Below are positions 1,859 through 10,195 of a stretch of 10,231 nucleotides of DNA, one piece after another. The notes beneath the pieces are model-generated. The model ran no database searches. It was given only the letters and a program-made list of their open reading frames with translations, and was not told where the DNA came from. The stretch's first letter is position 1. Each line of letters opens with the position of its first letter. Position numbers and translations under genes: made by a program. The DNA lies in NCBI GenBank assembly GCA_029258695.1, contig JARIBR010000217.1:1-10231 (forward strand). The letters are read 5' to 3'. Origin of the DNA: Quadrisphaera sp. (GTDB taxonomy: Bacteria > Actinomycetota > Actinomycetes > Actinomycetales > Quadrisphaeraceae).

Positions 1859-2497
1859 ATGACGGTGCGCGTCTTCCTCCTCGACGACCACGAGATCGTC
1901 CGTCGGGGCGTGCGGGACCTCCTGGAGGCCGCCGGCGACATCGAGGTGGTCGGTGAGGCGTCCAGCGCGGCGCAGGCCCTGCGCCTCATCCCCGTCGTCC
2001 TGCCCGACGTGGCCATCCTCGACGCCCGGCTGCCCGACGGCTCGGGGATCGACGTCTGCCGCGACGTGAGGTCGCAGCACCCGGAGGTCTCCGCCCTCAT
2101 CCTCACGTCCTTCGACGACGACGAGGCGCTGTTCGCGGCGATCATGGCCGGCGCCGCGGGCTACGTGCTCAAGCAGATCCGCTCGACCGCGCTCGTGGAC
2201 GCGGTGCGCCGGGTGGCGGCGGGCGGCTCCCTGCTCGACCCCGCCGTGACCGCCCAGGTCCTGGCACGCGTACGGACGGGGCCGCCGGAGGACCCGCGCA
2301 TCGCCCGCCTGACGCCCAGCGAGCGCCACGTGCTGGACGGCATCGCCGACGGCCTCACCAACCGTCAGATCGGCGAGCGGCTGTTCGTCGCGGAGAAGAC
2401 GGTCAAGAACCACGTCACCTCGCTGCTCGCCAAGCTGGAGATGGAGCGGCGCACGCAGGCCGCGGTCTTCGCCGCCCGCCTGCCCCGCCAGGGCTGA
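1859..2497 (+). CDS. dosR: DosR/DevR-type NarL-family response regulator
   Basis: A 212-residue two-component response regulator. The receiver domain (about 3-120) starts [16 protein letters not shown], has the phospho-acceptor D55 in [16 protein letters not shown]83 in LILTSF and K105 in GYVLK. A LuxR/NarL helix-turn-helix follows (about 149-208): [29 protein letters not shown], and [15 protein letters not shown]. The last block is nearly the same as in M. tuberculosis DosR as I remember it. K180, K183 and N184 match the residues reported to contact the DosR box (K179, K182, N183), so binding to the same GGGAC-type palindrome is expected. The likely partner is the GAF-GAF kinase at 4094-5806. 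The protein should activate genes under low oxygen or NO. Start: ATG after a leaderless-type promoter. It converges on the PNPOx-like gene 22 bp downstream. DosR is preferred over generic NarL because of the whole-length resemblance and the gene context. Confidence 0.9.
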
Positions 2498-2519
2498 CGT
2501 CGCGCCGCGCGGGCCGGCC

Positions 2520-2975
2520 TCAGCGGGACCAGTCCGGCTCCCACACGTCCGGGAGGCGGTCGGGCAGGACCTGGCGACCCGTGACCCCGTGGGGGATGAG
2601 GCGCTTGAGGTGGGCGCGCTCGCCCGGGGCCCAGGGTGAGACCCCGCTCGACGCCGTCCGCGCTGCCACCTCGGGACGGTGGTCGGCGCCGACCTCCTCC
2701 ACCAGGCCGCGTACGAGGACGCTCCAGCCGGTGCGCAGCCCGCGGTCCATCGCATCGACCTGGAAGGTGACGTTCGCGTGGTCCGCGGCCGCGGACACCG
2801 CGCCGGCGCCCATGCGCAGCACGACCACGTCACCGTCCATGGCGAAGTTGACCGGCACGATCACCGGGTACCCGTCGACGACCACCCCGAGCCGTCCCAC
2901 GACCTGGGTCGCGACCAGCGCCCAGCACTCCTCGGCGCTCAGCACGTCCACCCGCCTATCCTCCGGTGTGCTCAT
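2520..2975 (-). CDS. Pyridoxamine 5'-phosphate oxidase-like flavin-binding protein
   Basis: A 151-residue protein of the PNPOx-like split-barrel family. Visible marks are the N-terminal [38 protein letters not shown] (read in parts across residues 12-49), [25 protein letters not shown] (about 51-75, central strands) and a late [11 protein letters not shown] strand. Such proteins bind FMN, F420 or haem, and their substrates are often unknown; it is not expected to be true PdxH. Start: ATG 2975 has an excellent GGGAGGAG ribosome site 6 nt upstream, so a longer frame beginning at 3191 is rejected. The gene is divergent from the first USP and convergent with dosR. PNPOx-like proteins belong to the mycobacterial DosR regulon (Rv0080 from memory), which fits the context. 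No clear DosR box was found upstream. Confidence 0.85.
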
Positions 2976-3036
2976 GGAACTCCTCCCGCTCCGCGTGCCG
3001 TCCCTCGTCTCGCCCAGCCACCCCAGCCCACCGCAG

Positions 3037-3048
3037 GTGCCCTGGCAC
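3037..3048. repeat. Short palindrome GTGCC-CT-GGCAC between divergent genes
   Basis: GTGCC and GGCAC arms are separated by CT, in the intergenic region shared by the PNPOx-like gene and the first USP. It sits roughly where an activator site would lie for the USP but does not match the DosR box form. Possible operator; weak evidence. Confidence 0.25.
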
Positions 3049-3091
3049 GCGGGGACCGCGGTAGGCCATGATCGCCGTGGAGGTGGTTCCC

Positions 3092-4042
3092 ATGACGACG
3101 CAGGACGCGTCCCCCCAGCACCAGGCCCACGACGAGAGGGCCAGCACCGCAGGCGCCGCACCGGTCGTCGCGGTCGCCTACGACGGCTCACCGGCCGCGA
3201 CGACCGCGCTGACGTGGGCGGCCCGGGACGCCGGCTCGCGCGGCGCGCGGCTGCGGGTCCTCATGGCCGCGGACGTGGGGCCCGGTGACACCGGCGGCGC
3301 CGCCGCCCTGGCGGAGGCCGGGCGCGAGGCGGGCGTGAAGCTGACGCGCGAGGGCGCCGAGTGGGCGGCGACGGTCGAGGGCGGCCCCCCGGCGGAGTCC
3401 ATCGAGACCGACGTGCGCATCGGCGACCCCACCGCCGCGCTCGTCGAGGCCTCCCGGGAGGCGGACCTGCTCGTCATCGGCAACCGCGGACGCGGCGCCG
3501 TCACCGGTGCGCTGCTCGGCTCGACGGCGTTCTCCGTCACCGCTCGGGCCGCCTGCCCCGTCGTCGTCGTGCGCGGGGACACCGAGCTGCGGGTGGGGGT
3601 GAGCCACCCCGTCGTCGTCGGCGTCGACTCCTCCGAGTCCGCGCTGGCCGCGGTCGCCTGGGCCGCCGACGAGGCGGCGACGAGCGGGGCACCGCTCGTG
3701 CTGATCGCCGCGTGGACGCCCCCCGACACCCTCGCCGCCAGCTACGGGACGTCCCACCTGCCCGAGATGCTCCGCAGGGCCGAGGCGCACGCCCGTCACG
3801 GCGCCGACGTGGCCCTCGCCCGCGCGCACCAGGACCACCCCGACCTCCGCGGCGAGGTCCGTCTGGTCCGCGAGAAGCCCGCCAAGGCGCTGGTCGCCGC
3901 CTCGCAGGACGCCGGGCTCGTCGTCGTCGGCGCACGCGGCCTGAGCAGCGTCGGCGGGCTCTTCCTCGGCTCGGTCAGCCACGCCACCATCCACCGCGCC
4001 GCCTGCCCGGTCGCCGTGGTGCGCGAGGCAGCCCACCGCTGA
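3092..4042 (+). CDS. Tandem universal stress protein (USP1)
   Basis: A 316-residue cytoplasmic protein with two UspA domains (about 25-162 and 173-312). Each domain begins with the usual VVAVAYDGS / VVVGVDSSE strand and Asp. Each ends with the ATP-binding G-2x-G-9x-G(S/T) loop: GNRGRGAVTGALLGSTAFSV (from 130) and GARGLSSVGGLFLGSVSHAT (from 280), both followed by ACPVVVV/ACPVAVV. Both halves look competent for nucleotide binding. In mycobacteria several tandem USPs belong to the DosR regulon and are linked to arrest of growth. Start: ATG 3092 has GGAGG 8 nt upstream (3079-3083); an in-frame ATG at 3068 lacks this and is rejected. The initiation region is almost the same as that of USP2. No good DosR box is seen upstream, only a GGGAC half-like stretch at 3052. 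It converges on dosS, 51 bp away. Confidence 0.92.
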   Translation: MTTQDASPQHQAHDERASTAGAAPVVAVAYDGSPAATTALTWAARDAGSRGARLRVLMAADVGPGDTGGAAALAEAGREAGVKLTREGAEWAATVEGGPPAESIETDVRIGDPTAALVEASREADLLVIGNRGRGAVTGALLGSTAFSVTARAACPVVVVRGDTELRVGVSHPVVVGVDSSESALAAVAWAADEAATSGAPLVLIAAWTPPDTLAASYGTSHLPEMLRRAEAHARHGADVALARAHQDHPDLRGEVRLVREKPAKALVAASQDAGLVVVGARGLSSVGGLFLGSVSHATIHRAACPVAVVREAAHR

Positions 4043-4045
4043 GAC

Positions 4046-4060
4046 CACCGGGTCCCGGTG
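4046..4060. terminator. Candidate terminator hairpin between USP1 and dosS
   Basis: CACCGGG-T-CCCGGTG is a perfect inverted repeat just after the USP1 stop. As RNA it would fold with a stem of about 5 bp (CACCG/CGGTG) and a GGTCC loop. There is no T-tract. Its place between two convergent genes is right for a bidirectional terminator, but the short stem makes this tentative. Confidence 0.35.
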
Positions 4061-4069
4061 CGCTGACCC

Positions 4070-4121
4070 GGCACGGTCACCGCACCGGCACGGTCACCGC
4101 ACCGGGACGGACCACCGCACC
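4070..4121. repeat. 17-bp tandem repeat overlapping the dosS stop codon
   Basis: GGCACGGTCACCGCACC occurs at 4070-4086 and again, identical, at 4087-4103. A third, imperfect copy follows at 4104-4121. The dosS stop (complement of 4094-4096) lies inside the second copy, and the third copy encodes part of the terminal RWSVPVR of the kinase. This looks like local duplication of the dosS 3' end. Confidence 0.75.
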
Positions 4122-5806
4122 ACGGAACCTCCGCCGAGCGCGTCCGCGACCTCGAGCGAGCCACCGCGCGCGGTGGCCCGCTCCTCGAGGTTGGCCAGGC
4201 CGCTGCGCCGACCAGGGCCGCCCGTGCCGCGGCCGTCGTCGCGCACGCTGACGCTCACGTCCTCGCCGACGGCGACGACGACGTCCACGGCGGAGGCTCC
4301 GGCGTGACGGGCGACGTTGGACAGCGTCTCGCGCAGCACCGCGAGGACGTCGGCGCGCAGCGAGAGCGGGAGGTCGTCGAGCACGCCCTCCACGTGCAGG
4401 GCCGGGGTGAAGCCCAGCTGGTCGGCGGCGACGGCCAGCTCGTGCTCGACGTCGGTGAGCACGTCACCGCGCCCGGCGCGGGCGTGCAGCGAGAAGATGG
4501 TGCGCCGGACGTCGCTGATGGTCTCGTCGAGCTGGTCCACCGCCGTTTCGAGCCGTCGCTCGAGCCACCGGGGCAACGACTGCGGCCCGGCGGCCTGCAG
4601 CGACAGCCCGACGGCGAAGAGCCGTTGGATCACGAGGTCGTGCAGGTCACGGGCGATCCGGTCCCGGTCCTCGAACACCGCGAGCCGCGCACGGAAAGCC
4701 TGCGCCCGGGCCGCCTCGAGGGTCAGTCCCACCCGCTCGGCGAAGTCCACCACCTCGTCGGCCTGGTCCAGCACCGCCGCGGCCGCGCGCGCGGAGTCGA
4801 AGGTGAGCACCAGCAGACCGAGCACCGCGTCGTCCGGGACCTGGGCTCCCTCGACCGGGGAGGCCGCCGGGGCGCGCTCCGCCGTGCGCTCGCGGGGGCC
4901 CTGTCGCGGGCCCACGCGGGCGAGCACGACCCGGCCCTCCCCACGGGCACCCAGCCGCTCCGCGAGCCCGGGCCCCGCGAGCGCCAGGGCTGGCGCGTCG
5001 TCGTCGAGGACTCCCCCCACCTCGCCCGCCGAGAGCTCGTCGCCCGGGGCCAGCGCCAGCTCACCGTCCACCCCCTCGACGAGCAGCGGGGCGGTCGGGG
5101 AACCGGCGGGGCCCAGGACCAGCGCCCCGCCGCGGGCCACCGCGGCGACCCGCGCGAGGCGGGCCACCTGCGCGGAGCCGGCGGCGCGCCCGGCCGGCAC
5201 CAGCGCCCTCGACGCCCCGGCGGAGGCCGAGACCCACCGCTGCCGGGCGAGGGCCTGCTCGTAGAGGCGGGCGTTCTCCACCGCCACACCCGCAGCCGCC
5301 GCGAGCGCGAGGAGCATCTGCTCGTCCGCCTCGGTGAACCCCTCGTCACCGTCCGAGCCGTCCTCGACCTTGTCGGTGAGGTAGAGGTTGCCGAACACCG
5401 CGTCGCTGGTGCGGACCGGCACGCCGAGGAAGGAACGCATCGGCGGGTGCCCGGGCGGGAAGCCGACCGAGCTGGGGTGCTCGCGCAGGTCCCGGAGCCG
5501 CAACGGCTGCGGGTGGCGCACGAGCTCGCCCAGCGTCCCGAGCCCCCGGGGCAGCACCCCGATCGCGGCGCGCTGGTCGGCCGTGATGCCCGAGGTGATG
5601 AAGTCCTCGAGGGACCCGTCGGGGCTGAGCACGCCGATCGCGGCGTACCGGGCACCGGCGAGCTCACGCGCGGCGTCCACGAGCCGCTGCAGCACCGCGT
5701 GCAGCTCGAGGTCGCCACCCAGCTGGGCCAGGGCGTCGAGCAGCGCGCTCCACCGCGTCGTCAGCGCATCGGCCTCGACGCTCGGGAGCGGTCCGGGATC
5801 TTCCAT
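4094..5806 (-). CDS. dosS: DosS/DevS-type GAF-GAF sensor histidine kinase
   Basis: A 570-residue soluble sensor kinase without membrane segments. GAF-A (about 35-185) holds FPPGHPPMRSFLGVPVR and FGNLYLTDK; H120 in this motif aligns with the haem-ligand H149 of M. tuberculosis DosS, so haem-based sensing of O2, NO or CO is inferred. GAF-B (about 186-370) is divergent, with a Pro/Ala/Arg-rich stretch near 298-326. The HisKA_3 domain has DRDRIARDLHDLVIQRLFAVGL with phospho-acceptor H389. The HATPase_c domain has an N box RETLSNVARHAGA (N497), DDGRG (523-527), SGLANLEERA and GGGSVVRWSVP. The likely partner is DosR at 1859. ATG 5806 is preferred over GTG 5833: TAGCGT ends 8 nt upstream of this ATG with no Shine-Dalgarno, a near-leaderless arrangement. 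It is divergent from USP2 across a region with two DosR-like boxes, so autoregulation is possible. The second GAF is the least certain part. Confidence 0.92.
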   Translation of the reverse strand: MEDPGPLPSVEADALTTRWSALLDALAQLGGDLELHAVLQRLVDAARELAGARYAAIGVLSPDGSLEDFITSGITADQRAAIGVLPRGLGTLGELVRHPQPLRLRDLREHPSSVGFPPGHPPMRSFLGVPVRTSDAVFGNLYLTDKVEDGSDGDEGFTEADEQMLLALAAAAGVAVENARLYEQALARQRWVSASAGASRALVPAGRAAGSAQVARLARVAAVARGGALVLGPAGSPTAPLLVEGVDGELALAPGDELSAGEVGGVLDDDAPALALAGPGLAERLGARGEGRVVLARVGPRQGPRERTAERAPAASPVEGAQVPDDAVLGLLVLTFDSARAAAAVLDQADEVVDFAERVGLTLEAARAQAFRARLAVFEDRDRIARDLHDLVIQRLFAVGLSLQAAGPQSLPRWLERRLETAVDQLDETISDVRRTIFSLHARAGRGDVLTDVEHELAVAADQLGFTPALHVEGVLDDLPLSLRADVLAVLRETLSNVARHAGASAVDVVVAVGEDVSVSVRDDGRGTGGPGRRSGLANLEERATARGGSLEVADALGGGSVVRWSVPVR

Positions 5807-5814
5807 CGCCGCCG

Positions 5815-5820
5815 ACGCTA
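5815..5820 (-). promoter_or_regulatory. Candidate near-leaderless -10 element of dosS
   Basis: On the minus strand TAGCGT (complement of 5815-5820) fits TANNNT and lies 8 nt upstream of the ATG at 5806. Transcription would start 0 to 2 nt before the start codon. No ribosome site is visible, and no -35 was recognised. Confidence 0.4.
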
Positions 5821-5888
5821 GACGCCGCGCCACGGGCTCGCGCGACGGCCCCCGGCGCTGCTGGCGGCGGCCGCCGGCTGCTCCGCGT

Positions 5889-5902
5889 GGGCCGTAGGTC
5901 CC
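5889..5902 (-). promoter_or_regulatory. DosR-box-like palindrome, distal site of USP2 operon
   Basis: Read on the minus strand the site is GGGACCTACGGCCC, agreeing at all fixed positions with the DosR box form GGGACYTNNGNCCY as I recall it from mycobacteria. It lies in the dosS-USP2 divergent region, with its centre 23 bp from the next site, roughly two helical turns. DosR commonly binds paired boxes. Confidence 0.62.
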
Positions 5903-5911
5903 GGGAGACCG

Positions 5912-5925
5912 GGGACCTCTGGTCG
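5912..5925 (+). promoter_or_regulatory. DosR-box-like palindrome, proximal site of USP2 operon
   Basis: GGGACCTCTGGTCG matches the DosR box form except at two positions of the second half. Its centre is 55.5 bp before the USP2 ATG. If it lies at -42.5, as is usual for DosR sites, transcription starts near 5961. GAGGCT at 5949-5954 would then be a correctly placed -10 element and the message would begin at the ribosome site. Confidence 0.55.
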
Positions 5926-5948
5926 AGTCGCCGCGGGGACGCCACCGC

Positions 5949-5954
5949 GAGGCT
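5949..5954 (+). promoter_or_regulatory. Candidate -10 element of USP2-hmp operon
   Basis: GAGGCT is one change from TANNNT. It sits where the proximal DosR-like box predicts a -10 element, 7 nt before the GGAGGTGG ribosome site at 5961-5968. Activator-dependent promoters often have weak core elements. Confidence 0.3.
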
Positions 5955-5973
5955 GTCGACGGAGGTGGTCGCC

Positions 5974-6963
5974 ATGACGACGACGCAGCAACGCGCGCAG
6001 CGCCACGACGGCCGCGGGAGCCCGCGCCCCCAGGTGGTGGTGGGCTACGACGGCTCCGCGGGCTCGGTCGAGGCGCTCACGTGGGCCACCGTCGAGGCCT
6101 CCTCGCGCGGCGCCGACCTCACGGTGCTGGCAGCCGCCGACCTCTCCGCGGTGGCCTCCGCCGGGGCCCCCTCCCTCGTGGACGGCGTGCGGGCCGGGCA
6201 GCAGCACCTGGCCGCCGAGGGGGTCGCGTGGGCGGTGCGGGTCGTCGAGGACCTCGGCGGGCACCGTGCCGCGACGGTCCGGGCCCAGGTCACCCTGACG
6301 AGCCCCGCCCAGGCCCTCGTGGACGCCTCGGAGCGCGCCGACCTCGTCGTGGTGGGCAACCGTGGCCACGGCCGGATCGCCGGAGCGCTGCTCGGGTCCG
6401 TCGCCTTCTCGGTCACCGCCGCGGCGAGGTGCCCCGTGGTGGTGGTGCGCGGCGACGCGCAGCGCCGACCAGGGCCCGCCGCCCCCGTGGTGGTCGGCGT
6501 CGACGACTCCCCCGGCGCGGGCGACGCGCTCGCCCACGGCGCCGACGCCGCCCACCGCGCGGGCGCGCCGCTCGTGGTCCTCGCGGCGTGGTCCACCCCC
6601 GAGGTGAGGGCCGGCGGCTACGCCGAGCCCTACGGCCGCGAGCTGGTCGCCGGGGCCAGGCGCACCGCCGCGGCCGTCGCGGACCTCGCCGCCGACCGGG
6701 CGCGGACGGCCCACCCCGGCCTCCCGGTCACCACCCGGGTGCTCGAGCAGCGCCCTGCCGGAGCCCTCGCGGACGCCTCCACCGACGCCGGCCTGGTCGT
6801 GGTCGGCGCCCGTGGTCGAGGGGGGATCGCCTCACTGCTCCTCGGTTCCGTCAGCCACGCCACCGTCCACGCCGCCCGCTGCCCCGTCGCGGTCGTGCGA
6901 CGACCAGCCCTGACCGCCACCGCTCCCCCACCCCCGCCCGAAGGAGATCTCCGTGCTGTCTGA
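5974..6963 (+). CDS. Tandem universal stress protein (USP2)
   Basis: A 329-residue protein with two UspA domains (about 20-160 and 171-311). Both carry intact ATP-loop motifs: GNRGHGRIAGALLGSVAFSV (from 128) and GARGRGGIASLLLGSVSHAT (from 278), each followed by RCPVVVV or RCPVAVV. The first strand is VVVGYDGS. ATG 5974 has GGAGG 8 nt upstream. The Pro-rich tail (about 316-324) is encoded by the sequence that also carries the ribosome site of the next gene; the stop at 6961-6963 lies 11 bp inside hmp, so the two are translationally coupled. Two DosR-like boxes upstream suggest induction by hypoxia or NO. It is a paralogue of USP1, with almost the same initiation region. Confidence 0.93.
   Translation: MTTTQQRAQRHDGRGSPRPQVVVGYDGSAGSVEALTWATVEASSRGADLTVLAAADLSAVASAGAPSLVDGVRAGQQHLAAEGVAWAVRVVEDLGGHRAATVRAQVTLTSPAQALVDASERADLVVVGNRGHGRIAGALLGSVAFSVTAAARCPVVVVRGDAQRRPGPAAPVVVGVDDSPGAGDALAHGADAAHRAGAPLVVLAAWSTPEVRAGGYAEPYGRELVAGARRTAAAVADLAADRARTAHPGLPVTTRVLEQRPAGALADASTDAGLVVVGARGRGGIASLLLGSVSHATVHAARCPVAVVRRPALTATAPPPPPEGDLRAV
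6941..6946 (+). promoter_or_regulatory. Ribosome-binding site deciding the hmp GTG start
   Basis: AAGGAG, 6 nt before GTG 6953, is a near-ideal Shine-Dalgarno inside the end of USP2. It settles the GTG start and indicates an operon with USP2. Confidence 0.75.
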
Positions 6964-8218
6964 CCGTTCCCGCCCCGTCATCGAGGCGACCCTGCCCGTC
7001 GTCGCCGAGCACATCGAGGAGATCGCGCAGCGCTTCTACGCCCACATGTTCGCGGGCAACCCCGAGCTGCTGGACGGGGTCTTCAACCGCGGCAACCAGG
7101 CCGAGGGCACCCAGCAGGTCGCGCTCGCCGGGTCGGTGGCGGTCTTCGCCAGCTCGCTGCTCGCCACGCCGGAGCAGGTGCCCGAGCGGCTGCTCTCGCG
7201 CATCGCCCACAAGCACGTGTCGCTCGGCATCCGCCCCGACCAGTACCAGATCGTCCACGACAACCTCTTCTGGGCGATCGCCCAGGTGCTCGGCGAGGCC
7301 GTGACGCCCGAGGTCGCCGCCGCGTGGGACGAGGTGTACTGGCTGATGGCCTACGCCCTCACCCACCAGGAGCGGGGCCTCTACAGCTCCCGCGGGGTGC
7401 GCGCCGAGACGGTGTGGCGCCCGTGGCGGGTGGAGGAGAAGATCCGCGAGACCGACGACGTCGTGACCTTCGTCCTCGCGCGCACCGACGACCGTCTCGT
7501 CAAGACGTCCCTGCCCGGGCAGTACGTCTCCGTCCAGGTGCTGATGCCCGACGGCGTCCACCAGCCCCGGCAGTACAGCCTGACCCGCGCCGACGACGGC
7601 CAGCACCGGCAGATCTCCGTCAAGCGGGTCCGCGGCGACGGCGTCCCCGACGGAGAGGTCTCCAACCTGCTCTTCGACACCGTCGAGGTGGGTGACGAGC
7701 TGACGATGTCGCTGCCCTTCGGTGACGTCGTGCTCGACGACTCGGGGCGGCCCGTGGTCCTCGCGAGCGCCGGGATCGGCATCACCCCGATGGCCGGCAT
7801 GCTCTCCCACCTGGCCGCCGCCGGCTCGCGCCTGCCGGTCACCGTGCTGCACGCCGACGAGGAGGAGTCCGCCGTGGCGCTGCGGCGCCAGGTCCTCGAC
7901 GACGTCGCCTCCCTGGCGGACGCCCGGGCGCACGTCTGGTACGAGCGCGGCGCGGAGTCCTCCCTGCCCGTCGACGGCGTGCACGAGGGGTTCATGGACC
8001 TCGACGACGTGGAGCTGCCCGAGGGAGCGGTGTACTACCTGTGCGGCCCGCTGCCGTTCCTCAAGGCCACGCGCAGCTCCCTGATCGAGCGCGGGGTCCC
8101 GGCCCGGGACGTCCAGTACGAGGTGTTCGGCCCCGACCTGTGGCAGGCCGACGCGATGACCGAGCCCTCCCCCGGCGCCACGGCCGCGGAGCCCGCGGCC
8201 GCGGGCACCCGGGCCTGA
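6953..8218 (+). CDS. hmp: Flavohemoprotein, nitric oxide dioxygenase
   Basis: A 421-residue cytosolic enzyme that oxidises NO to nitrate with O2 and NAD(P)H. The globin domain (about 1-145) keeps the catalytic set known from E. coli Hmp: distal Y29, Q54 for Gln53, proximal H88 in IAHKHVS, and the Y98/E140 partners. The FAD domain (about 153-262) has RQYSLT (206-211) and LPGQYVSV. The NAD domain (about 266-395) has SAGIGITPM (272-280), YLCGP (362-366) and YEVFGP (389-394). About 25 Ala/Pro-rich residues follow the usual end. GTG 6953 is set by AAGGAG, and the start overlaps USP2 by 11 bp. Control is probably from the DosR-like boxes at 5889-5925, so NO sensed by the DosS-like kinase could induce the enzyme that removes NO. 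Identity is secure; the regulatory link is inferred. Confidence 0.95.
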   Translation: MLSDRSRPVIEATLPVVAEHIEEIAQRFYAHMFAGNPELLDGVFNRGNQAEGTQQVALAGSVAVFASSLLATPEQVPERLLSRIAHKHVSLGIRPDQYQIVHDNLFWAIAQVLGEAVTPEVAAAWDEVYWLMAYALTHQERGLYSSRGVRAETVWRPWRVEEKIRETDDVVTFVLARTDDRLVKTSLPGQYVSVQVLMPDGVHQPRQYSLTRADDGQHRQISVKRVRGDGVPDGEVSNLLFDTVEVGDELTMSLPFGDVVLDDSGRPVVLASAGIGITPMAGMLSHLAAAGSRLPVTVLHADEEESAVALRRQVLDDVASLADARAHVWYERGAESSLPVDGVHEGFMDLDDVELPEGAVYYLCGPLPFLKATRSSLIERGVPARDVQYEVFGPDLWQADAMTEPSPGATAAEPAAAGTRA

Positions 8219-8279
8219 GCCGAGCGGCCGACGTGAGGGACGTCCTCGACCACGGCCAGACGGGCGGTCGGTCGGTCGA

Positions 8280-8293
8280 GGGACCAAGGTCTC
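8280..8293 (-). promoter_or_regulatory. DosR-box-like palindrome upstream of cupin operon
   Basis: On the minus strand the site reads GAGACCTTGGTCCC, matching GGGACYTNNGNCCY at all fixed positions but one (A at position 2). It lies 62 bp after the hmp stop, in the 233-bp gap before the cupin gene. If placed at -42.5, transcription would start near 8329, leaving a leader of about 120 nt before the cupin ATG. Confidence 0.52.
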
Positions 8294-8380
8294 GGGAGCC
8301 CGGGGCTTCCAGCCGGTCCGCAGGCCACACGAGGCGAGAAGGATCACCGTGGCGGGACCCGCTCACCAGCGGTCCGCCCC

Positions 8381-8406
8381 TCGGGACGGCTCATGGACGG
8401 TCCCGA
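8381..8406. repeat. Inverted repeat TCGGGAC-N12-GTCCCGA in cupin leader
   Basis: Two perfect 7-bp arms (8381-8387 and 8400-8406) flank 12 nt, about 46 bp before the cupin ATG. In RNA it could form a hairpin in the cupin leader; in DNA the GGGAC/GTCCC halves resemble DosR half-sites at too wide a spacing. It could also act as a terminator for hmp, though no T-tract follows. Confidence 0.4.
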
Positions 8407-8451
8407 CCTCCATCGAGGGGAACGGCCACGACTCCGGAGAGGCAGGACCGC

Positions 8452-8784
8452 ATGGACCCCGCACCGTTGAACGGGTTGGCCCACGAGCACCTCGAGCGAG
8501 CACGCTCGGCGTCGAGCGGACGCAGCGCGCGGACCGTCCAGGGCGGGGCTGGCACCGTGCTGCGCCAGACCCTCATCGCCCTGGCCTCGGGCCAGCTCCT
8601 GCACGAGCACGAGAACCCCGGGGAAGCCACCGTGCAGGTGCTCCTCGGGAGCGTCCGGCTCGGTGACGCGGACGCCTCCGTCGACGGGAGCGAGGGTGAC
8701 CTGCTCGTGGTCCCGGACCGCCGGCACTGGCTGGAAGCGCTCGAGGACGCCGTCGTCCTCCTGACGGTGGCCAAGCACTCGTGA
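8452..8784 (+). CDS. Small single-domain cupin protein
   Basis: A 110-residue protein forming one cupin barrel. Metal-motif 1 is seen as LLHEHENPGEATVQVLLGSVRL, with H51, H53 and a later acidic residue (E58). Motif 2 is GDLLVVPDRRHWLEA, with P88 and H92 but an Arg where the usual PxG Gly is. The C-terminus AVVLLTVAKHS is typical of a family of about 110 residues that databases often label simply as cupin, or wrongly as LuxR regulator, as I recall; there is no helix-turn-helix. Role unknown; metal-dependent small-molecule binding or sensing is possible. ATG 8452 follows AGGCAGGA (8440-8447). The same frame is open upstream, but that part lies over hmp and the gap and does not look coding. It probably forms an operon with the next gene, 34 bp on, behind the DosR-like box at 8280. 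Confidence 0.85.
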   Translation: MDPAPLNGLAHEHLERARSASSGRSARTVQGGAGTVLRQTLIALASGQLLHEHENPGEATVQVLLGSVRLGDADASVDGSEGDLLVVPDRRHWLEALEDAVVLLTVAKHS

Positions 8785-8818
8785 CCGGAACACTGACGAC
8801 GACGGGAGATGGTCCTTC

Positions 8819-9115
8819 GTGATGCCGCACCACGACACGCTGGAGATCGAGCCGCAGGGAGACCACGAGTACGTGGCGCGCCTGTCCGCGGGAGGTGTCG
8901 ACGCGGGGTCCTGGATCAGCGTGACGCCGGACGTGCTCGACGAGCTCGGCGTCAGCGCTGCTGACGAGGAGGACCTGGTCCGCCGCACGGTCGCGTTCGT
9001 CGCCGACCACCAGAGCCTGGCCGACTTCCCCCCGATCATCGCGCTCGAGGACGTCCTCGCCGCCTACGAGGACTACGCCGACGCCATCGCGCCGCGCGGT
9101 GGCGCCCCGGGGTGA
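8819..9115 (+). CDS. Conserved-looking small acidic protein of unknown function
   Basis: A 98-residue acidic protein that I cannot assign to a named family. It opens with alternating strand-like text (TLEIEPQGDHEYVARLSAGG), then TPDVLDELGVSAADEEDLVRRTVAFVADHQ, which looks helical, and ends with an acidic segment ALEDVLAAYEDYADAIA. No signal peptide, membrane segment or cysteine pair is seen. GTG 8819 is chosen since GGGAG (8804-8808) lies 10 nt upstream; the next codon ATG 8822 is an alternative with 13 nt spacing. The gene follows the cupin by 34 bp on the same strand, so co-transcription is likely. I recall similar short hypothetical proteins beside usp genes in other actinomycetes, which is only a hint. 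Codon usage fits the neighbouring genes. Confidence 0.72.
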   Translation: MMPHHDTLEIEPQGDHEYVARLSAGGVDAGSWISVTPDVLDELGVSAADEEDLVRRTVAFVADHQSLADFPPIIALEDVLAAYEDYADAIAPRGGAPG

Positions 9116-9165
9116 GCGCCACGGCGGGGCGACGGTCTCCCTCCAGCCACCGGGGGTGAGGAGCC

Positions 9166-10146
9166 TCAGGCCCGGACGAGCGCCTCGTCGGCGCGAGGTG
9201 CGAGAGCTGGCGCCCCGGAGCGGCCGGGCACGCCGCGCAGGTGGTCACCCACGTCCCCGTCACGGACCATCGCGACGGGGCACGGCGCGTGGTCCAGCAC
9301 CCCCATGGTCACCGCGCCCGGCAGCAGCCCCAGGCGTCCCTCGCCGGAGCACCCGCTGAGCACCAGGAGCTCCGCGCCGCGGCTGCGCCGGACGAGCCCC
9401 ACGACCGGTTCCTCGCGCACGAGGTGCGTGACCACCACCACGTCCGGGTGTCGCTCGCGGAAGCCTGCCAGCAGCGTGGCGACCATGGCGCGGCGCTCCG
9501 GCCAGCCGCCCTGCCGCTCGTCGGGTGCCGCGCCGGGGGCCGTCGGGGGCCAGGCGTGCACCGCCTTCAGCTGCGCCCCGCGGGAGCTGGCCTGCGTGAA
9601 GGCCAGCTCCAGCGCCCCGCGACCCGCGTGCGTGCCGTCGACGCCCACGACCACGACGGCGCGCTCGGACATCTGCCGCGGGTGCGCCGGCGCGGGAGCG
9701 TCCGCGGCGTCGTCGCCGCGGGGCACCACGACGACGGGGCACCGGGAGCGCATCGCGAGGAGGACCGCGACCGGTCGGCCGGGCCGGCCAAGGGCCGCGC
9801 GCAGGAGCGTGTCACCGAGCACCACGAGGTGTGCGCCGCGGGAGAGGTCCACCAGGTGGGGCACGACGGGCTCGGTGACGGTGGTGACGCCGGCGCCGGG
9901 AGCGAGGTCGGCGGTGAGCGCGCGGACGCTCGCGCGAGCGGCGGCGGTGTCATCGTCCCTGGCGTGGACGAGGTGGAGCGGGCGGTGCGCGGCGCGGGCC
10001 CGCTCCACCGCCCACCCCAGCGCCGCGCGGTCGGCGGGACCGGCGTCGAGCGCGACCACCACGGCTCCGCGAGGCACGGAGGGGGCGTCCCACGACGAGG
10101 CGGGGCCCCGGACGGGCGAGGCGCTCGGGCGCTGCGAGGCAGGCAT
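9166..10146 (-). CDS. Tandem universal stress protein with degenerate first domain (USP3)
   Basis: A 326-residue protein with two UspA-like domains (about 28-142 and 163-294). Domain 2 has VVVVGVDGTHAGRGALELAF and a recognisable nucleotide loop in SGCSGEGRLGLLPGAVTMGV, ending APCPVAMV. Domain 1 keeps the first strand and Asp (VVVALDAG) and the CPVVVV strand, but its loop region GDTLLRAALGRPGRPVAVLL lacks the G-2x-G-9x-G(S/T) pattern, so it probably does not bind ATP in the usual way. It is much more divergent than USP1 and USP2. Start: ATG 10146 is the best choice, though GGAG is only 2 nt upstream; a later start near residue 24 is possible because the first 25 residues are Ser/Pro/Arg-rich and precede the fold. 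A strong DosR-like box lies at 10182-10195. It converges on the 98-residue gene across 50 bp. Confidence 0.88.
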   Translation of the reverse strand: MPASQRPSASPVRGPASSWDAPSVPRGAVVVALDAGPADRAALGWAVERARAAHRPLHLVHARDDDTAAARASVRALTADLAPGAGVTTVTEPVVPHLVDLSRGAHLVVLGDTLLRAALGRPGRPVAVLLAMRSRCPVVVVPRGDDAADAPAPAHPRQMSERAVVVVGVDGTHAGRGALELAFTQASSRGAQLKAVHAWPPTAPGAAPDERQGGWPERRAMVATLLAGFRERHPDVVVVTHLVREEPVVGLVRRSRGAELLVLSGCSGEGRLGLLPGAVTMGVLDHAPCPVAMVRDGDVGDHLRGVPGRSGAPALAPRADEALVRA

Positions 10147-10181: not shown

Positions 10182-10195
10182 GGGGCGAAGGTCCC
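10182..10195 (-). promoter_or_regulatory. DosR-box-like palindrome upstream of USP3
   Basis: Minus-strand GGGACCTTCGCCCC agrees with GGGACYTNNGNCCY at every fixed position. Its centre is 42.5 bp before the annotated ATG, so at the usual -42.5 position transcription would begin at the start codon itself. That means either a leaderless message or a translation start further in. Confidence 0.6.

Follow-up and report, generated by a model that had tools for sequence, protein, structure and literature searches.

The targets of the DosR (DevR) regulator of Mycobacterium tuberculosis are spread over many loci. Release of oxygen switches its sensor kinases on, and nitric oxide (NO) is reported to activate one of them, DosT, by displacing oxygen (PMC5069765; this article, PMC4766573 and PMC4082495 are drawn on in excerpt throughout). 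In Streptomyces coelicolor, both low oxygen and an NO donor raised the expression of the genes that surround osdR (earlier work, as cited by PMC5069765). Here we describe a locus in a 10,231-base stretch of Quadrisphaera sp. DNA (contig JARIBR010000217.1; the whole stretch that was analysed is called the window), in which nine consecutive genes lie at positions 1859–10146, a claim of the original prediction that gene calls and Pfam families bear out. Probably, the locus is a chromosomal two-component island of the DevR/DevS type (DosR/DosS, OsdR/OsdK), controlled by oxygen, whose regulator would activate the genes for a universal stress protein (Usp B) and a flavohemoprotein (Hmp), those for a cupin-like and a small protein, and that for a further universal stress protein (Usp C).

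In the mechanism that we propose, the first GAF domain of the kinase (GAF-A) would hold a haem by way of the histidine in GHPPMRSFLG, and oxygen bound there would keep the kinase off. On a fall in oxygen, the kinase would phosphorylate the DevR-type regulator, which would then bind boxes of the form GGGAC-N4-GTCCC and activate Usp B-Hmp (perhaps the kinase as well), the cupin-like and small-protein genes, and Usp C. We take low oxygen as the presumed signal of the window system and leave the effect of NO open, because the reports on NO, taken up again below, conflict in sign.

The response regulator (212 amino acids; positions 1859–2497, forward strand; Pfam Response_reg and GerE) has M. tuberculosis DevR as its best solved-structure match, at 226 bits, with VraR second at 148. 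In a tree of 54 rows, built from one best regulator per locus, it shares a clade with M. tuberculosis DevR (support 100/99). This clade has 29 rows, namely M. tuberculosis DevR, the window regulator, 25 regulators from island loci and two from genome G003, one of the latter duplicating an island row; since row ISL_L005 is a truncated copy of the gene in GEN_L106, the 29 rows amount to 28 genes. The 25 rows outside the clade are VraR and 24 regulators of genomes G174, G062, G003 and G118, which represent the paralogues that the DevR search assigned to a locus and not all paralogues. Queried with M. tuberculosis DevR, G174 and G062 return the island regulator on top (235 and 234 bits, respectively), with second matches at 137 and 126 bits; G003 has several regulators of the DevR clade, at 67, 55 and 52% identity to DevR. 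The 12 control genomes have no mycobacterium or Streptomyces among them, and the family search therefore provided no reference from these groups. A DosR-type regulator had been predicted for the locus; the tree and the top-match searches agree with this, no grouping with non-Dos regulators was seen, and membership of the DevR family is, as judged by sequence, firm.

The histidine kinase (570 amino acids; positions 4094–5806, reverse strand) matches GAF_2 and HisKA_3 in Pfam, with HATPase_c slightly below its cut-off (25.1 vs 26.4). Its GAF-A (residues about 30–185) is closest to DosT and DosS in the solved-structure search, and the predicted model compares with the DosS/DosT GAF-A chains at template-modelling scores, taken on the target, of 0.88–0.97. 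A second GAF domain, missed by Pfam, appears in the model at about 207–346 (mean predicted local distance difference test score of 83, with the loop 304–322 poorly predicted). The domain set is that of two GAF domains, HisKA_3 and HATPase, the second GAF being a prediction of the model only. A DosT GAF-A query, run against four genomes, places the syntenic kinase on top both in G174 (130 bits, second match 21) and in G062 (166 bits, second match 58). The nearest relatives of the window kinase among the genomes searched are in the same two genomes, at 70% and 61%.

The haem pocket is the more telling part of the kinase. The roles of His149/His147, Tyr171/Tyr169 and Glu87/Gly85 in DosS/DosT are described in PMC4082495. 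The ligand histidine, the distal tyrosine and a glycine of the DosT Gly85 type are present in all 21 kinases with an alignable GAF-A, a count that leaves out L001, L003 and L004 (too short), L002 (unlike) and L074 (kinase not extracted). At least four loci (L001–L004) from a scan of the genome contigs with the window kinase have kinases without an alignable haem GAF. Of 27 further GAF_2 loci in G174 and G062, only one combines histidine and tyrosine (some of these are probably in the wrong frame, and L085 yielded no row). The DevS row of the alignment shows Gly at 87, as its chain, 2y8h, is the E87G mutant. Since the glycine accompanies a stable oxygen complex, an oxygen-sensing, DosT-like kinase is our better guess from the sequence, in preference to a redox sensor; the ease with which DosS is oxidized is disputed between laboratories (PMC4082495). 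A haem-type kinase had been claimed for the locus, and the haem-pocket residues, the DosT/DosS matches, with the search by DosT GAF-A, and the predicted fold support a DevS/DosT-type kinase that would bind haem. DevS-type kinases of 382–386 amino acids without the second GAF occur at L059–L063 (genomes G118, G090, G010, G146 and G104, of the family of G174).

The candidate binding sites were defined by a 14-base core, GGGAC-N4-GTCCC, with at most one mismatch. Three were found in the window, with no strand assigned to them. The first, GGGCCGTAGGTCCC (5889–5902, one mismatch), lies between the kinase gene and that of Usp B (5974–6963, forward strand). The second, GGGACCAAGGTCTC (8280–8293, at most one mismatch), is centred about 165 bases 5' of the ATG of the cupin-like gene (8452–8784, forward strand), and the third, GGGGCGAAGGTCCC (10182–10195, at most one mismatch), about 43 bases 5' of the start codon of Usp C (9166–10146, reverse strand). 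Locus L056 of G174 is syntenic with the window and keeps the order of hypothetical gene, aminotransferase and island through the cupin gene, at 68–90% identity. Its kinase-Usp B gap holds GGGCCCTTGGTCCC, the position of the Usp C box is occupied by GGGTCGAAGGTCCC, and GGGACCTTGGTCTC occurs twice, before two Usp genes. The box at 5889 is followed by a conserved block, GGGGACCTC(T/C)GGTCGAG. A further box of the relative, GGGACCTTCGGCCC at L056:5349, has the same 14 bases as the OsdR sites at SCO0167, SCO0216 and SCO5979 (Table 1 of PMC5069765), and the SCO5978-SCO5979 site is reported to be bound by OsdR in vitro (PMC5069765).

The window is very rich in guanine and cytosine (71–82% in 500-base steps), and the boxes could be chance matches in such DNA. 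By their counts alone they equal shuffles: the three boxes of the window compare with a shuffle mean of 2.04 and are reached by 62 of 200 shuffles, the 16 boxes found at up to two mismatches compare with 22.8, and the seven of L056 are reached by 24 of 200 shuffles. Box count was for this reason rejected as evidence, and the argument is made from position. Intergenic DNA makes up 9.1% of the window and contains 3/3 of its boxes (p about 8e-4); together with L056, where 5/7 are intergenic, the figure is 8/10 (p 6.7e-7). For the G062 set it is 8/15 (p 4e-4), or 7/13 after removal of doubles, as L057 and L163 have about 8 kilobases in common and one intergenic and one coding site are counted twice. 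In 20 further loci, found via a kinase relative, 50 of the 73 boxes are intergenic (p 2e-23), whereas 19 permuted half-site controls give nothing like it (at most 17/60 by count; best p 0.005, for 12/34). All of these p values assume independent sites, and the fractions are approximate because the codon-score script with which the genes of the relatives were called overextends some starts, as for the aminotransferase of the window. The same applies to the distance between box centre and nearest start codon, which is 41–46 bases for 15 of the 69 boxes with a downstream gene; of 106 distances, 6 are 65–66 bases. L165–L176, chosen because they bear boxes, enter this distance count and are left out of the placement count. 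The shorter spacing, to which Usp C of the window conforms, suggests leaderless transcripts whose box is centred near −43. Given the intergenic placement, the controls and this spacing, we regard a chance origin as very improbable, and position supports the boxes as real sites of the system. The several DosR-like boxes of the original prediction survive as three, all intergenic; their number is ordinary, and nothing in the window matches the full 20-base consensus of M. tuberculosis at up to three mismatches.

The reach of the system in relatives is wider than the island. With one mismatch allowed, GGGACCWWGGTCYC has 16 strand hits in the whole genome of G174, against two for the reversed control; in G062 the difference is weak (17 against 11). 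Boxes adjoin 85 genes when the window and L056 are included (87 found, two doubles dropped), among them 16 Usp, 12 GAF_2, 10 Response_reg, 8 Pyridox_ox_2 and 5 cytochrome bd subunit I (cydA) genes, and some of the 85, such as one for a solute-binding protein, may be adjacent by chance. The cydA boxes, centred 64–66 bases 5' of the gene (L001:3698, L003:3306, L004:2635, L063:11205 and L163:7822), come from Umezawaea, Amycolatopsis, Actinosynnema and two genomes of the family of G174. In G174 an exact box, GGGACCTTGGTCCC, stands 132 bases upstream of an arginine deiminase gene (L170:7977, equal to G174:C122:35976). By these predicted sites, the DevR system of the relatives extends beyond a compact island. 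The boxes at cydA (five genomes) and at arginine deiminase suggest that low-oxygen energy metabolism, together with Usp proteins, is an old output of the DevR system. A literature search judged by title and start of abstract, with subscription papers excluded, found no report of DevR control of cydA or Hmp among the matches listed. The idea of a compact, minimal regulon is not sustained: relatives carry boxes at cydA, at arginine deiminase and at more Usp genes, and three island genes of the window have no good box of their own.

Several observations weigh against an oxygen-controlled DevR/DevS island. The window regulator and M. tuberculosis DevR belong to different sub-clades (94/97 and 97/94, respectively), and one-to-one orthology does not follow from the tree. 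The genes of regulator and kinase are not adjacent, for which reason their partnership is presumed only from neighbourhood. The position of DevS His89 is Leu in the window kinase. The genes without a good box are those of the regulator, the PNPOx-like protein and Usp A; at up to two mismatches, the window has no box in the gap 5' of the regulator gene and none between PNPOx and Usp A, the second of which gaps does have one in L056. To these is added the ordinary number of boxes. Finally, autophosphorylation of S. coelicolor DevS was lowered by NO (PMC4766573), at odds with a simple switching-on by NO. What had been predicted as a minimal hypoxia/NO regulon outside mycobacteria stands as to its DevR/DevS type and is not supported as to minimality, with NO induction uncertain in view of the S. 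coelicolor kinase.

The separate sub-clade, along with the several DevR-clade regulators carried by G003, would also fit a paralogous system of the DevR family that takes a different input, such as redox or the cell envelope, and whose output is a general stress response; the Usp proteins would then be effectors of growth arrest with no link to oxygen or NO. We consider this improbable, as the histidine, tyrosine and glycine of the haem pocket are kept in every aligned kinase, and the box-adjacent genes, including cydA (5/85) and arginine deiminase, point to low oxygen. An oxygen-controlled DevR/DevS island remains our interpretation of the locus.

The Hmp gene (6953–8218, forward strand) encodes a full-length flavohemoprotein of the NO dioxygenase type, as predicted, with globin, FAD and NAD domains; with the best NCBIfam model, 'NO-inducible flavohemoprotein', it scores 334 bits where the cut-off is 432. 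The gene starts inside the last bases of Usp B, with GAAGGAG ahead of the GTG, an arrangement in which the two genes may form an operon. L056 has an Hmp of 90% identity in the same place and a cupin gene of 78% identity, and keeps the order Usp B-Hmp-cupin, in which the genes are separated by 60 and 12 bases. The second of these gaps measures 233 bases in the window (8219–8451) and has its own box. When the window proteins were searched against 24 loci (stretches of up to about 21 kilobases, expect values up to 1e-5), Hmp was found only in L056. The wider Hmp survey covered 394 genomes, of which 105 have a match, and took the best 30; one is G174, which leaves 29 others. No box lies in the 400 bases upstream of Hmp in 26 of these (L204 has only about 107 bases there); one or more are present in L194, L195 and L197. 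An NsrR-like gene precedes Hmp in at least 10 of the 29: ten upstream neighbours were chosen by strand (that of Hmp) and by NsrR size, and 10/10 belong to the Rrf2 family. NsrR-like is our own label, the Pfam family of the upstream protein in L195 being Rrf2. In this locus, the stretch between the NsrR-like gene and hmp (L195:1260–1500) contains an AT-rich segment that resembles an operator, along with three boxes of the DevR type, possibly a case of double control. In the Hmp loci closest to that of the window, L178–L182 (64–77% identity), both a box and a same-strand gene of NsrR size are missing upstream of Hmp.

These surveys bear on whether Hmp belongs to the output or is a passenger of the island, read from its own promoter inside Usp B or governed by an unlinked regulator. 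The 26 loci without a box would agree with a passenger, as would L178–L182, in which this Hmp branch may be under some other control, and the 60 bases that separate Usp B and Hmp in L056. The overlap of Usp B and Hmp with a good ribosome site argues for the opposite, and so do the gene order kept in L056 and the failure of an NsrR-like query to find a match in G174, a genome that is possibly incomplete. On balance, a passenger Hmp is possible but less likely than not, and activation of Hmp by DevR is the arrangement that we favour.

No NsrR-like gene lies beside the window Hmp. The NsrR-like query had no match in G221 either (this genome, too, may be incomplete) and weak ones in G062, G558 and G372, with 32, 38 and 23 bits. 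To our knowledge, Hmp is not a DosR target in M. tuberculosis. It is tempting, and at this point speculative, to suppose that in this lineage the haem kinase DevS took over NO detoxification from NsrR, the usual iron-sulphur repressor, with Hmp in a DevR-boxed operon, that NsrR was lost, and that one sensor would read both oxygen and NO and drive Hmp in a closed feedback loop. The idea is weakened by the five closest Hmp loci outside the island, none of which has an NsrR-like neighbour either. The surveys make it plausible that Hmp changed over from NsrR to DevR control. If Hmp is truly driven by DevR, one NO sensor would have been replaced by another in a bacterium.

The remaining genes of the island complete the picture. 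An aminotransferase gene and a partial hypothetical gene precede the nine. The PNPOx-like flavin protein (151 amino acids; 2520–2975, reverse strand) scores 78.6 bits with Pyridox_ox_2 against a cut-off of 27, in agreement with the original prediction. Usp A (3092–4042, forward strand), Usp B and Usp C are double-domain proteins with two Usp stretches each. The best solved match is 2jax (TB31.7, which we take to be Rv2623) for Usp B, at 115 bits, and for Usp C, and 3cis and 2jax for Usp A. Their genes had been described as three in tandem, which is not the case: the kinase gene and those of Hmp, the cupin-like and the small protein lie between them, one is on the opposite strand, and the tandem exists only as the two domains within each. 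The predicted cupin (110 amino acids) is reduced to a weak, cupin-like match, as Cupin_2 gives an expect value of 0.006, below the cut-off. The last protein, of 97 amino acids (8822–9115, forward strand), is without known function and matches no family. It is a near-orphan, with one relative detected, in Geodermatophilus (53% identity); a search of the syntenic locus L056 gave no match.

With this locus, the DevR systems known from mycobacteria and Streptomyces extend to another lineage, and a box definition whose placement holds across 20 further actinobacterial loci makes regulons predictable in relatives of the source organism. In its regulator clade, its two-GAF haem-type kinase, its TB31.7-type Usp proteins and the palindromic GGGAC...GTCCC core, the system resembles DosR/DosS/DosT of M. 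tuberculosis, from which it differs in that the kinase has the DosT-type glycine and the full 20-base consensus is unmatched. With the NsrR-Hmp modules of actinobacteria it shares the family of NO dioxygenase and not the NsrR-like gene beside it; the Fhb of S. coelicolor is controlled by NsrR (PMC4766573). The most similar known region is that of OsdR/OsdK in S. coelicolor (SCO0167-SCO0219, PMC5069765), to judge from the part of that article used here. Common to both are a DevR/DevS-type pair, clustered Usp genes and a PNPOx gene, which in S. coelicolor has a site (SCO0214), and a closely similar box is found in the two systems, GGGACCTTCGGCCC being listed in Table 1 of PMC5069765 and present in the relative L056. 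In S. coelicolor, osdR-osdK is an operon and genes for nitrate reductase, nitroreductase and a dikinase are nearby (PMC5069765), whereas in the window the regulator and kinase genes are apart and Hmp, the cupin-like protein and the small protein are found instead. A DevR/DevS island of this class is already published in Streptomyces, and the present locus is a variant of it, with a built-in Hmp and a split layout of regulator and kinase.

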